Origin: Candidatus Choladousia intestinavium
GTDB lineage: Bacteria; Bacillota; Clostridia; Lachnospirales; Lachnospiraceae
Direction of reading: 5' to 3'
NCBI GenBank assembly: GCA_018712785.1
Contig: DVGK01000155.1
Coordinates: 1-38,187, forward strand
DNA: 38,187 nucleotides
The notes under the pieces: generated by a model
What the model was told of the DNA's origin: nothing
Database searches by the model: none
The model's input: only the letters and a program-made list of their open reading frames with translations
Shown: piece by piece, positions 5,623 to 10,370 of the stretch
Layout: each line of letters starts with the position of its first letter
Position numbering within the stretch: position 1 is the first letter of the stretch
Position numbers and translations under genes: made by a program

Positions 5623-5698
5623 ATTATACACAAAGTAGAAGAAAAAGGGGAGCTTTTTATGTAAAATTTATGTAAATACGCAGAAAAGGCCAACACAT
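5623..5698 (-). promoter_or_regulatory. Pho-box repeats and promoter of the Na/Pi cotransporter-phoP-phoR unit
   Basis: On the minus strand, two perfect TTTACA hexamers (5671-5676 and 5660-5665) are separated by five bases, giving the 11-bp spacing of Gram-positive PhoP boxes. Weaker copies (TTTTCT, ATGTGT) continue at the same spacing upstream to about 5698. A perfect TATAAT -10 box lies at 5623-5628 with no good -35, as expected for an activated promoter. Confidence 0.7.
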
Positions 5699-5852: not shown

Positions 5853-6542
5853 CTATACTGTAAAGACGTCGTTAATCTCTTTTCCGCTTCTGTGCTTTCC
5901 TGTAATAGAAAATTCCACCCACTCGCCAATATTGGATGCATGGTCGCCGATCCGCTCATAGTATTTGGCGACCATCAGAAGATCCAGAGCCTGGTCGCTT
6001 GAGACCTCTCCCGTTTTCATTTCCTCAATAATCTCACTCCGCACAGCCAGGAAATGCTCATCTACAATATCGTCGCTGTCAATGACTTCCTGAGCCATGG
6101 CAAGGCTGCTCTCCACATAAGACTCAATACTGTTGTTTACCATCTTCATGGTAGCCTCCGCCATCTGAGTCAGTCTTGAGCCGCTGATAGGCAGCTTGAT
6201 GGTTCCTACCTGAATAATCTCAGCAATATCTGTGGCCTGATCTCCGATTCGTTCTAAATCTGTAATCATCTTCAGAGCGGCTGAAATTTTCCGCAGATCG
6301 GACGCTACCGGCTGCTGCTGGAGAAGAAGCTGGATGCAGATGGTCTCCACCTGCCGTTCCTGATGATCAATCTCATGCTCCAGCTGATCGATCTCTTTTA
6401 CAAGCGCGTCCTGATCTTTTTCTTCTGAAAGCAGAAGCTTATAAGTCTTCATAATGGCCTTCTCGCAGAGCATACCCATTTCCAGCATCTCTTTATGAAG
6501 ACGTTCCAATTTCTCTAAAAAACGATTTCTCATATCAGCCAA
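5853..6542 (-). CDS. phoU: Phosphate transport regulator PhoU
   Basis: A 229-residue helical protein made of two PhoU repeats. Each contains the metal-site-like pattern, visible as [18 protein letters not shown] (about 88-105) and [17 protein letters not shown] (about 190-206). PhoU links the Pst transporter to the PhoR kinase and keeps the Pho response off when phosphate is plentiful. The ATG overlaps the pstB stop region by eight bases, so translation is coupled. Length and both repeats are normal for the family. Confidence 0.97.
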
Positions 6543-7284
6543 ACCTCCCTGTGATATATTCTTCCGTTTTCTTATTCTTCGGCATAGAGAAAAGAGTCAT
6601 GGTATCATCGTACTCAATCACCTCTCCCAGAAGGAAGAAAGCGGTTTTATCAGAAATTCTGGCTGCCTGCTGCATATTGTGGGTTACCATTACAATTGTA
6701 TAATTCTCTTTCAGCTCTGTAGCCAGGTCCTCAATTCTGCTGGTGGAAATAGGATCCAGCGCGGAAGTAGGCTCATCCATCAGCAGAACCTCCGGTTCTA
6801 CAGCCAGAGCTCTGGCGATGCAAAGACGCTGCTGCTGTCCTCCGGACATTCCCAGAGCGCTCTTTTTCAGGCGATCCTTTACCTCATCCCAGATCGCGGC
6901 GTCTCTTAAGGCTTTTTCCACAATATCATCCAGCTTGGATTTTGAATGAACTCCGTGGGTTCTGGGACCATATGCAATATTGTCATAAATACTCATGGGG
7001 AAAGGATTCGGTTTCTGAAAGACCATTCCGACTCTCTTTCTCAGCATATTTACATCCATTTTCCCATAGATATCCTCCCCGTCCAGCTTCAGCTCTCCGG
7101 TGATTTTGCAGCCCTCCACCAGATCGTTCATACGGTTCAGGGATTTGAGAAGCGTTGACTTTCCGCAGCCGCTGGGGCCGATAAAAGCCGTAATTTTATG
7201 TTCCGGAATGTCCAGATTGATATCCTTCAGCGCGTGGAAATCTCCGTAATACAGGTTTGTATTGTGAATTGTTATTTTATCCAT
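6535..7284 (-). CDS. pstB: Phosphate ABC transporter ATPase PstB
   Basis: A 249-residue cytoplasmic ATPase that powers phosphate import. Walker [10 protein letters not shown] (36-44), ABC signature MSGGQQQR (146-153) and Walker [12 protein letters not shown] with Asp170/Glu171 are all intact. The run [20 protein letters not shown] followed by EEYITGRFG is the typical PstB C-terminus. It starts three bases after the pstA stop and overlaps phoU by eight bases, all part of the pst operon. Confidence 0.98.
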
Positions 7285-7287
7285 TTC

Positions 7288-8235
7288 TTAACCTCTTCCT
7301 TTTAAGAGTTTTCTCGCCAGCAGATCAGAAAGACCGTTTAACGCCAGCACAACTACAAGTAAAACAACCGCCGTAGCATAGGCTTCATTCATATGAAGGC
7401 CCTCGCTGGAAAGCACATACATGTGAACGGCCAGCGTACGCCCTGAACCGAAAAGATTGTGAGGAACCTGGGCAACTGAGCCCGCTGTATAAAGCAGAGC
7501 CGCCGTCTCGCCTACGATTCTTCCTGTAGCAAGAACCACACCGGAGAGAATTCCCGGCACAGCCGTAGGAAGAACAATGCGGAAGATGGTCCGCAGCTTT
7601 CCTGCGCCAAGTCCAAAGGACGCCTCTCTGTAAGAATCCGGCACTGCCAGAAGAGCTTCCTCCGCAGTCCTCATAATCAGCGGAAGAATCATAATTACCA
7701 GAGTTAATGAACCAGCCAGCAGGGAGTATCCCCATCTGAGAGCCGTACTGAAAAACAGCATACCAAACAGACCGTATATGATAGAAGGAATACCGGACAG
7801 AGTCTCGGCTGTAAGCCGGATCACTGTAACCACCTTGCTGCCTTTGTTCGCGTATTCCACAAGGAAGATTGCCGCGAATACCCCCAGCGGGATCGCGATC
7901 ACAAGAGAGAGCGCTGTCATAATCACCGTGTTAATCATCGCGGGCATCAGGGAAACGTTCTCTGAATTATACTCCAGCGCGAAGAGATCCGGGGTAATAT
8001 ACCGCACGCCTCTTATCACAATAAATCCTACCAGGAAAACCATTACCGCCAGGGTTAAGAAGCCTGCCAGCCATACCAGCAGGGCTGCCGCCGCTGAGCC
8101 GGGATGATTTTTCCACTTCTGCGCTACCTTTTCCAGCCACTCCCCAGCCGTCTGCTTTTTCTGTACCGGGGTATTGGCAATTACTACAGTTCCCTCGCCG
8201 CCCTCGTTCTGAGGCAGATTATTTTCTCTATTCAT
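7288..8235 (-). CDS. pstA: Phosphate ABC transporter permease PstA
   Basis: A 315-residue inner-membrane permease. After a charged cytoplasmic N-terminus of about 47 residues come six hydrophobic segments. The permease loop FGLGAGKLRTIFRIVLP contains the coupling-helix pattern that docks with PstB. The long N-terminal tail is a little unusual but within the family's range. The ATG lies inside the pstC stop region (8-base overlap), with GGAG eight bases upstream. Confidence 0.96.
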   Translation of the reverse strand: MNRENNLPQNEGGEGTVVIANTPVQKKQTAGEWLEKVAQKWKNHPGSAAAALLVWLAGFLTLAVMVFLVGFIVIRGVRYITPDLFALEYNSENVSLMPAMINTVIMTALSLVIAIPLGVFAAIFLVEYANKGSKVVTVIRLTAETLSGIPSIIYGLFGMLFFSTALRWGYSLLAGSLTLVIMILPLIMRTAEEALLAVPDSYREASFGLGAGKLRTIFRIVLPTAVPGILSGVVLATGRIVGETAALLYTAGSVAQVPHNLFGSGRTLAVHMYVLSSEGLHMNEAYATAVVLLVVVLALNGLSDLLARKLLKGRG

Positions 8236-9082
8236 ATGCCGATCTCCGTTTCAAAGCTGATATGCAAAGGTTAATAATCAAAATAAACACAAACAGTACA
8301 ACGCCGGTAGCAATCAGCGCCTCTCTGTGAAGATTTGCCGCATAACCCATCTCAATTACAATGTTCGCCGTCATCGTTCTCAGACCTTCGAATACACCCT
8401 GAGGCATCCAGGTCTGATTTCCTGCAACCATAATTACCGCCATAGTTTCACCGATGGCGCGTCCGATTCCCAGGACTACCCCTGCCATTACTCCGGATTT
8501 TGCCGCCGGAAATACCGTAAAGAACACGCTGCGCTCATGGGTGGCGCCCAGAGCCAGAGCTCCTTCATAGTATGAGTCCGGAACACTCCTGATCGCCGAC
8601 TCTGCAACCCCTGTTACTGTGGGCAGAATCATAATTCCAAGAAGAAGTGATGCCGTAAACATTGTTGTTCCGTTTCCTGTCAGTTCTCTCAGCCAGGGAA
8701 CGAACACTACCAGACCAAAGAAACCATATACTACAGAGGGAACACCAGCCATCAGATTTACCGTAGCCTTAAAAAACGGATACAGACGTTTCGGACAGTA
8801 GTGAACCATAAAAATGGCTGTGAGCAGAGCCACAGGTACTCCGATAATAATCGCACCCGCAGTTACGTAAATGCTTCCCAGTATAAACGGGAAAATTCCG
8901 TACAGATCATTGGAAGGCCTCCATGTCTGACCGAACAGAAAATTGAAAATTCCAATCTCGCCCATAGCCGGCAGTCCGTTCGCAAACAAGAAAATACAAA
9001 TCAGCGCTACCGCCAGGACAGAGGTACAGGCCGCTACCAAAAAGATGATATGCATAACCCGCTCTGATAATTTATTTGCCAT
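8228..9082 (-). CDS. pstC: Phosphate ABC transporter permease PstC
   Basis: A 284-residue permease with six predicted membrane segments and the coupling loop ALALGATHERSVFFTVFP, the partner of PstA in the phosphate channel. It is separated from pstS by 224 bases that hold two hairpins but no promoter I can defend, so it probably relies on read-through from the pstS promoter. The ribosome site (GGAAG five bases before ATG) is weak, which may keep permease levels below those of the binding protein. Confidence 0.96.
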   Translation of the reverse strand: MANKLSERVMHIIFLVAACTSVLAVALICIFLFANGLPAMGEIGIFNFLFGQTWRPSNDLYGIFPFILGSIYVTAGAIIIGVPVALLTAIFMVHYCPKRLYPFFKATVNLMAGVPSVVYGFFGLVVFVPWLRELTGNGTTMFTASLLLGIMILPTVTGVAESAIRSVPDSYYEGALALGATHERSVFFTVFPAAKSGVMAGVVLGIGRAIGETMAVIMVAGNQTWMPQGVFEGLRTMTANIVIEMGYAANLHREALIATGVVLFVFILIINLCISALKRRSAYE

Positions 9083-9306: not shown

Positions 9307-10245
9307 TTACTCTGCAGCTTCTGTCTCTGCTGCTGCTGTCTCTGTCTCTGCTGCTGCTTCTGTCTCATCTGCTGCTGCCTCAGTATCTTCAGATACTGCG
9401 GGTGCTGCAAGGGCATCTTCCCATGTGGTGATCTCGCCAACATAGATCTGACGGATTGTCTCGCTGGAAAGCTCAGTTACACCGCTGTCATTGTTTACGA
9501 TTACAGCAATACCATCCTGTGCGATTACAGTAGGTGTAAGACCTGCAGCGATCTCTTCCTCGTTTACTTCTCTGGAAGCCATTCCGATATCGCAAAGTCC
9601 ATCAATTGCAGACTGCATACCAGTGGTGGAATCGCTCTGCTGAACTTCAACGTTTACGTTCTCATTTACTGATGCATAACCCTCAGCCAGCTTTTCCATT
9701 ACAGGAGTTACAGAAGAAGAACCAGCTACTGTCACATCGCCTGACGCATCCGTTGCCTCGTAAGCGCCTGTGCTCTCCACCGGGATGTAACCATTCTCTT
9801 CAATGATAGCCTGTCCTTCATCACTCATAATGTAGCTTACGAAGTCTGCAGCTGCGTCGCTGAGATCTTCTTTTGTCGCAATATTGAAAGGACGAACAAC
9901 CGGATACGTTCCATTCTCGATATTCTCTGCAGTTGCCTCTACTCCGTCAACCTTCACAGCTGTAACTGTGTCATCCAGAGAACCAAGAGATATGTAACCG
10001 ATGGCATTCTCATCACCTGCTACCGTGGTCATCATAACGGCAGTGCTGTTTGTGATGTTTGCTGCCTGTGTAGTATTGTCAACGTCGTCAACCTCAATGC
10101 CCATCAGCTCTACGAAAGCGCCTCTTGTACCAGAACCATCCTCTCTGGAAACAACGGTAATGTCTCCCTCAGCTGCTGCCATAGCGGTTACGCCAAGACT
10201 TGCTGTCATCATTGCTGCCATACATACTGCAATTGCTTTTTTCAT
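9307..10245 (-). CDS. pstS: Phosphate-binding protein PstS, apparently circularly permuted
   Basis: A 312-residue secreted binding protein of the Pst importer. The first 24 residues are a signal peptide (MKKAIAV... AMA-AA). Residues about 27-156 match what is normally the second half of PstS: ITVVSREDGSGTRGAF, then NAIGYISLG, YPVVRPF, and the usual family ending EGQAIIEENGYIPV. Residues about 170-276 then match what is normally the first half: VTVAGSSSVTPVMEKLAEGY, CDIGMASRE, VIAQDGIAVIVN, IRQIYVGEITTWEDA. The order is thus swapped relative to known PstS proteins. The last 30 residues are a low-complexity Ala/Glu/Thr tail. I see no lipobox. The start at 10245 is supported by AAAGGAGA about ten bases upstream. 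It is first in the pst operon behind Pho-box repeats. Confidence 0.93.
   Translation of the reverse strand: MKKAIAVCMAAMMTASLGVTAMAAAEGDITVVSREDGSGTRGAFVELMGIEVDDVDNTTQAANITNSTAVMMTTVAGDENAIGYISLGSLDDTVTAVKVDGVEATAENIENGTYPVVRPFNIATKEDLSDAAADFVSYIMSDEGQAIIEENGYIPVESTGAYEATDASGDVTVAGSSSVTPVMEKLAEGYASVNENVNVEVQQSDSTTGMQSAIDGLCDIGMASREVNEEEIAAGLTPTVIAQDGIAVIVNNDSGVTELSSETIRQIYVGEITTWEDALAAPAVSEDTEAAADETEAAAETETAAAETEAAE
9310..9396 (-). repeat. Low-complexity repeat encoding the PstS Ala/Glu/Thr tail
   Basis: The 3' end of pstS is built from imperfect GCTGCTGTCTCTGTCTC-like units (plus-strand reading). They encode an acidic tail of Ala, Glu and Thr with DETEAAAETETAAAE-like text. Such slippage-prone DNA can change length between strains. 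No sorting signal (LPXTG) or helix is present at its end. Confidence 0.75.
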
Positions 10246-10304: not shown

Positions 10305-10370
10305 ATTTTAAAGGAGAAATGTAAAATATGAAACATGGTTCAAGTAAAGAATACGTAAATTCCCGGTAAG
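10305..10370 (-). promoter_or_regulatory. Pho-box array and promoter of the pst operon
   Basis: On the minus strand, hexamers CTTACC, TTTACG, TTTACT, CATGTT and TTTTAC occupy 10365-10370, 10354-10359, 10343-10348, 10332-10337 and 10321-10326. All are in perfect 11-bp register, the pattern of PhoP boxes (TTHACA with 5-base spacers). A -10 box TAAAAT follows at 10305-10310. The pstS ribosome site comes about 50 bases later. No good -35 exists, fitting activation by the PhoP regulator. Confidence 0.75.

Follow-up and report, generated by a model that had tools for sequence, protein, structure and literature searches.

PstS is a textbook binding protein. In its canonical form, the TIGR02136 group represented by Clostridium perfringens PBP-1 (PDB 4Q8R and 4GD5), an N-terminal half is followed by a C-terminal half. 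The canonical N-lobe consists of two separate stretches of chain, with the C-lobe lying between them; in SAR11 PstS these are residues 24–111 with 279–324 (N-lobe) and residues 112–278 (C-lobe), and Arg125 of 4Q8R has been named as a phosphate hydrogen-bond donor (PMC12421899). Natural permutation has been described for other solute-binding proteins. MglB-2 of Treponema pallidum (Tp0684), designated 'Type Ic', is a naturally permuted ABC-importer binding protein that still binds its ligand; it differs from PstS, which has a type 2 fold, in its Type I fold, its sugar (glucose) ligand, its cut and its need for a fourth lobe crossing, and its authors suggested tethering as one possible cause of the permutation (PMC4990184). 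Permutation is likewise found among the glycine-betaine-binding proteins 2B4L, 1R9L and 1SW1, a permutation-related group that comprises betaine- and molybdate-binding proteins, in which members share less than 24% identity and the ligand is other than that of PstS (PMC2395249).

The closest described system is the PstS2 protein of Streptococcus pneumoniae (SP_2084; PDB 4H1X, released 2012), the receptor of Pst2 (PMC4913102). In this organism, either Pst1 or Pst2 suffices to take up Pi supplied at 1 mM, and encapsulated strains need one of the two. Uptake at 1 mM and at 200 µM Pi is not reduced when Pst2 alone is lost, and at low Pi the main contribution comes from Pst1 (PMC4913102). The string 'permut' does not occur in that paper. 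Among the papers retrieved from an open-licence PMC library, no title or opening of an abstract describes a PstS permutation (subscription journals and preprints lie outside that scope); circular permutation and PstS co-occur there only in papers that, by title, concern a lake virome, phage and a fish pathogen, and '4H1X' together with 'phosphate' retrieves no paper.

The window (the whole 38,187-nucleotide stretch of Candidatus Choladousia intestinavium DNA analysed here) contains a complete pstS-C-A-B-phoU operon on the minus strand, of which pstS is the first gene (Table 1). An earlier note on this DNA, made from the sequence alone, had described the pstS gene as intact, with a good start and a Pho-box promoter, and as the only pstS of its operon. 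The frame is indeed uninterrupted (312 codons, 0 internal stops), a good ribosome-binding site, AAAGGAGA, lies ten bases 5′ of the ATG, and the encoded protein is the sole match at E values up to 0.001 within its own genome (2.97 Mb, 90%-complete). Support for the promoter is moderate: one candidate pair was found, with two mismatches to TTWACA-N5-TTWACA, and the window as a whole contains 21 pairs with up to two mismatches, where 5.4 would be expected.

Table 1. Positions of the pst operon, the segments of its permuted receptor and nearby features in the window.
Feature	Positions	Strand	Remarks
Permuted pstS, 312 aa	9307..10245	minus	ATG 10245, stop 9309-9307
Signal peptide, residues ~1-24	10174..10245	minus	AxA-type end, no lipobox cysteine; by eye and pattern
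C-terminal half of canonical PstS, residues 26-157	9775..10170	minus	SREDGSGTRGAF ... GYIPV
Joint, residues 158-164	9754..9774	minus	old C-terminus meets old N-terminus
N-terminal half of canonical PstS, residues 165-280	9406..9753	minus	VAGSSSVTP ... DIGMASR ... GEITTWED
Acidic Ala/Glu/Thr-rich tail, residues 281-312	9310..9405	minus	block pLDDT 52-63
pstC, permease	8228..9082	minus	PF00528 (BPD_transp_1)
pstA, permease	7288..8235	minus	PF00528 (BPD_transp_1)
pstB, ATPase	6535..7284	minus	PF00005
phoU	5853..6542	minus	PF01895
Na/Pi cotransporter with PhoU domains	5581-3743	minus	downstream of phoU, same strand
Possible Pho-box pair TTTACG-N5-TTTACT	10343..10359	minus	upstream of pstS; TTWACA-N5-TTWACA, 2 mismatches
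Perfect TTTACA-N5-TTTACA Pho-box-like pair and further overlapping repeat	5660-5687	minus	upstream of Na/Pi cotransporter

The main claim of the earlier note, that this PstS is circularly permuted, was confirmed, and the residue ranges it gave for the two halves are correct within a few residues: the C-terminal half of the family stands ahead of the N-terminal half, which places the protein outside the collinear N-half-to-C-half PstS. Both family profiles matched the window PstS in two stretches. The best stretch for TIGR02136 (E 1e-58) covered residues 163–277 on profile positions 33–154 of 295, and the best for PF12849 (E 2e-35) covered residues 163–282 on positions 4–126 of 267. The TIGR02136 score of 198.7 bits falls just below the curated cutoff of 206.6, likely because a collinear profile cannot take the swapped order in one pass. 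Against PDB sequences, canonical 4q8r from C. perfringens matched in two pieces of swapped order, query residues 168–277 matching chain residues 3–112 and query residues 26–156 matching 117–245, with E values (2.8e-21 and 3.4e-29) beyond chance. By contrast, 4h1x aligned straight through, from query residue 23 to 276 on chain residues 5–262 (E 4e-60). Like the canonical chains, the S. pneumoniae PstS1 chain (4exl) gave two separate pieces, whereas the PstS2 chain aligned in one, which fits the published term 'evolutionarily distinct' for Pst1 and Pst2. Neither the PDB sequence comparison nor Foldseek gave a collinear alignment with ordinary PstS. The new C-terminus sits in a loop whose canonical counterpart has the sequence W-x3-GG. 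A frameshift or a fused partial duplicate was ruled out for the window gene, which has one open frame with each half present once.

The structure of the window protein was predicted with AlphaFold2, with 30 aligned permuted sequences, 2 of them truncated, as input. The model has a mean pLDDT of 85.4, with values of at least 90 for 214 of the 312 residues and below 50 for residues 1–22. The first-ranked Foldseek match was 4h1x (258 columns at 43% identity, with a TMt of 0.92 and an rmsd of 1.7 Å), with which the model is collinear; every other match was much weaker. Canonical PstS structures were matched over about half their length, 4gd5 at rank 4, 4q8r at rank 10 and 1twy at rank 27 (137–138 columns, TMt 0.42–0.45). 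These half-length matches fit a permutation, because Foldseek aligns in chain order. Distant folds of this type ranked among them, including HisG at ranks 2–3 (13–14% identity) and, as a weak match, OpuAC (2B4L) at rank 8 (282 columns, TMt 0.47). The match to PstS of type 2 fold also places the window protein outside the Type Ic group of MglB-2. The window PstS resembles S. pneumoniae PstS2 in half order, cut and joint; it differs in its acidic tail, which the solved PstS2 chain lacks.

Two long predicted strands in the model, residues 117–124 and 237–251, look like hinge crossings. On this model, the old N-lobe would form one continuous stretch (about residues 122–245) and the other lobe would be assembled from both ends of the chain, the reverse of the canonical arrangement. 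Because the lobe roles would be inverted, the export signal or anchor would hang on the other lobe. Conserved residues of the phosphate pocket are shared with canonical PstS. R34 of the window protein aligns with Arg125 of 4Q8R, the R-x3-SGT motif is kept in permuted and other groups alike, and the residues R34, S38, G39, T40, S176, S206, S224 and R225 recur in no fewer than 76 of the 77 permuted rows and no fewer than 36 of the 38 rows that are canonical or double. The window PstS is probably functional and most likely captures phosphate in the ordinary way, with the two lobes in exchanged roles.

The acidic C-terminal tail reported in the earlier note is real, and two relatives (L002 and L003) also have it; among 76 permuted rows, a tail of at least 30 residues was otherwise found only in L156. 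A lipobox was recognized in 33 of 34 canonical rows and 56 of 76 permuted rows, a count made with a simple pattern rather than a trained predictor, which missed L075 and L078 (cysteines at plausible places); L098 is cut at its 5′ end, and the window protein has no lipobox. Permuted PstS proteins without a lipobox occur in the window's genus, Blautia and Aerococcaceae (L004, L007, L021, L027, L028, L031, L032, L162, L164 and others), all of which are Gram-positive. In the Aerococcaceae loci L028, L031 and L032, the permuted PstS has a joint of 60–92 residues, and its gene lies after the pst permease, pstB and phoU genes, not before them.

A search for homologues in related genomes found the same half order in many genera and several phyla (Bacillota, Campylobacterota and Actinomycetota), with a patchy occurrence. 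The genome counts that follow are lower bounds, obtained at E limits of 1e-3 (window's genus and phylum), 1e-20 (order of Hutsoniella sourekii), 1e-5 (family of Helicobacter valdiviensis) or 1e-30 (phyla of H. valdiviensis and of an Eggerthellaceae genome), the stricter of which, 1e-20 and 1e-30 among them, hide most canonical proteins. In the window's genus, at least 32 of 46 genomes encode a one-piece permuted PstS-like protein (G032 the orphan kind only, described below), at least 4 encode a canonical PstS (G016, G025, G041 and G043; L113–L116), 4 have fragments or weak matches alone (G021, G036, G044 and G045), and 6 have no PstS match at E 1e-3 among the matches listed. Two relatives in separate assemblies, L002 and L003, share the order at 95.6% and 90.7% identity, and L035 and L036 encode the same two proteins. 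Across 398 sampled genomes of the window's phylum, a one-piece permuted match was found in at least 17 besides the window's own. At least 72 of 295 genomes in the order of H. sourekii (Lactobacillales, NCBI taxonomy) match at E 1e-20 or better, at least 71 of them permuted and one (G603) split over contigs. In the Helicobacteraceae, the family of H. valdiviensis, at least 55 of 100 genomes match: at least 44 with a full-length permuted protein, 1 with a partial protein across the joint (G812), 9 with a canonical protein and 1 weakly. At 1e-30, at least 22 of 150 genomes in the phylum of H. valdiviensis and at least 5 of 198 in that of the Eggerthellaceae genome match, all permuted among the matches listed. 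The permuted pstS of H. valdiviensis is followed by pstC-, pstA- and pstB-like genes. The earlier note had called the permutation a striking evolutionary event, but its scale is not that of a single genome; it is most likely one old event common to a large group.

Within the window's genus, the canonical pstS of L113 and L114, the two loci examined from the four genomes with a canonical protein, heads a canonical-kind pstC-A-B operon, and whole-operon replacement may have taken place. At least 7 of the 46 genomes also carry a second, orphan permuted PstS-like protein (L093–L099; 39–44% identical). No pstC was found beside orphans L093 and L096–L099 or in the ORF list of L095. The orphan at L096 (2357-3319) adjoins a Na/Pi cotransporter, and that at L095 (3442-2489) adjoins a YibE/F protein and a calcineurin-like phosphoesterase.

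For the phylogeny of the receptor, each sequence was divided into its halves, which were arranged in a common order, aligned separately and then joined. The 178 half-pairs were thinned by similarity to 115, and five single-half loci (L034, L144, L148, L149 and L150) were left unclassified. In a quick tree of these 115 rows, in which canonical row L109 sits on a very long branch, the permuted rows lie on one side of a branch with an SH-aLRT of 96. A more careful tree of 79 rows, from which the long or odd canonical rows L109, L125, L129 and L132 and 32 of the 77 permuted rows were left out, separates 45 permuted rows from 34 others by one branch (100/99, 100% of 200 bootstraps). Trees of each half from the same rows, with the junction columns removed, split alike, at 97/88 (96% of bootstraps) and 99/95 (98%), although they rest on few columns and the C-half bootstrap was still unsettled. 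The cut is also shared: 34 canonical proteins read W-x3-GG in the loop, and 66 of 77 permuted proteins stop 4–6 residues past that Trp. The joint between the old ends measures 6–9 residues in 72 of 77 permuted rows. S. pneumoniae PstS2 falls on the permuted side of the tree. A further tree of 50 rows combined 36 permuted and 8 canonical rows of the 115 with six Helicobacter-family rows; here Campylobacterota rows fall among Bacillota permuted rows (a 15-row group, 95/92), and the seven Campylobacterota rows do not form one group (L185 lies apart, with low support). These placements suggest transfer between Bacillota and Campylobacterota. One origin is the best supported account of the permuted PstS sequences. 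The trees give one change of order and no direction, because they are unrooted. In the chains from E. coli and M. tuberculosis, the region matching the second half of the query lies near the chain's own N-terminus, and the permuted form is taken as derived because the canonical order is general in the wider family.

The permease divides in the same way. PstC sequences were compared across 87 operons with an adjacent pstC on the same strand, so that permuted genes placed elsewhere (Aerococcaceae and the orphan paralogues) are unrepresented. Identity to the window PstC is 50–82% for permuted operons and 40–52% for canonical or double operons. One branch of the PstC tree splits 56 permuted operons from 31 others (100/96, 100% of 200 bootstraps), with the caveat that long branches may meet (L108 with the fused doubles described below). 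On these trees, the permuted receptor marks its own importer and permease lineage, which in S. pneumoniae is Pst2.

Several other explanations were weighed against a naturally permuted receptor. The source is a draft genome of 160 contigs, in which fragments of a canonical pstS might have been joined in the wrong order by assembly or binning. However, the order recurs in the separately assembled L002 and L003, in many genera, in strain-titled records of Blautia wexlerae, Frisingicoccus caecimuris, Facklamia and H. valdiviensis and in a crystallized homologue (4H1X). An assembly error is ruled out by the order's being common to cultured strains, and an artefact of either kind has a negligible probability; the earlier note had named an assembly error and a fused partial duplicate as ways in which its claim could fail, and the locus is neither. 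That the permuted protein has shifted to a different ligand or a sensory function finds some encouragement in the orphan paralogues that lie away from pstC in the window's genus. Against it, the genome of the window protein contains no other match of this kind, the gene heads the pst operon and the pocket residues are kept, and we consider such a shift very improbable. The canonical loci of this analysis share the pst operon context with the permuted pstS.

The number of events and the parentage of the halves bear on how the permuted PstS arose. Its patchy occurrence over Bacillota, Campylobacterota and Actinomycetota, together with the presence of canonical PstS instead in at least 4 of the 46 genomes from the window's own genus, could reflect several independent permutations at the same loop. 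By contrast, a single branch divides permuted from other proteins, each half alone agrees, the PstC tree divides likewise, and the cut and joint are alike in nearly all rows; the position of Campylobacterota among Bacillota permuted rows is as expected under transfer. Repeated permutation is thus most unlikely. A chimera, in which the C-half and the N-half came from two different pstS paralogues fused once rather than from one duplicated gene, is also unlikely. In its favour, two copies that have already diverged can each contribute a half when permutation proceeds through duplication, and tandem and fused copies with 64–74% identity exist. Yet both halves put the permuted proteins on the same side of the same canonical set, in short alignments that would not distinguish a recent duplicate from a close paralogue. 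The supported reading is that the window gene, set in an intact pst operon, encodes a genuinely circularly permuted PstS, and we hold with high confidence that a naturally permuted PstS serving as the extracellular phosphate receptor of a PstSCAB importer is, taken whole, the best explanation of the locus.

Proteins of the kind expected as intermediates in permutation by duplication exist. Two loci encode fused double PstS proteins in open frames (N-C-N-C), L081 (1102-2694, minus, 531 aa) and L082 (1102-2733, minus, 544 aa), each with two complete PstS units in one chain and a lipobox, upstream of pstC and downstream of an ORF that is kinase-like by motif only. The fused form occurs in 2 of 3 genomes of its order. 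The two units are identical at 181 of 245 positions in one double and 179 of 245 in the other, and the inner joint (IPV, about five residues and then the second N-half) resembles that of permuted proteins. A further locus (L127, 2330-4444) carries two adjacent, separate canonical pstS genes with 159 of 248 positions identical, the stage that would precede fusion. The doubles illustrate the duplication route and show that such a step happens. As a direct ancestor of the permuted group they were rejected, since they fall among canonical rows, beside L083.

A plausible route to the permuted receptor would begin with tandem duplication of pstS, followed by in-frame fusion of the copies into an N-C-N-C chain and by loss of the outer halves, once, to leave the order C-N; descent and horizontal spread with the operon would then account for its occurrence. 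The cut lies in a loop, with the ITTW region on one side and the SRED strand on the other, and a short linker joins the old termini. The resulting receptor would be a normal Venus-flytrap whose two lobes hold phosphate between them and which would dock on PstC/PstA. A broader reading can be advanced only tentatively and is more doubtful than probable: one old duplication-and-loss event may have exchanged the roles of the two PstS lobes and given rise to a co-inherited lineage of receptor and permease across phyla, moving the tether to the other lobe and relaxing the requirement for a lipid anchor (in some Gram-positive members, acidic tails or linker inserts stand in place of a lipobox), with each stage (tandem, N-C-N-C and permuted) still living.

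The window gene is a member of a permuted variant of PstS that has already been crystallized but is apparently undescribed. Because Pst2 of S. pneumoniae works, a system with a permuted receptor works, and the data on Pst2 loss mean that high affinity is not implied for the permuted kind. The permuted order is carried by more than 150 of the sampled genomes, from at least three phyla. With the fused double PstS found in two other genomes, a duplication route becomes testable on living proteins, and a single permutation so widely carried would provide a clean natural experiment on chain order versus fold in folding, hinge motion and docking.
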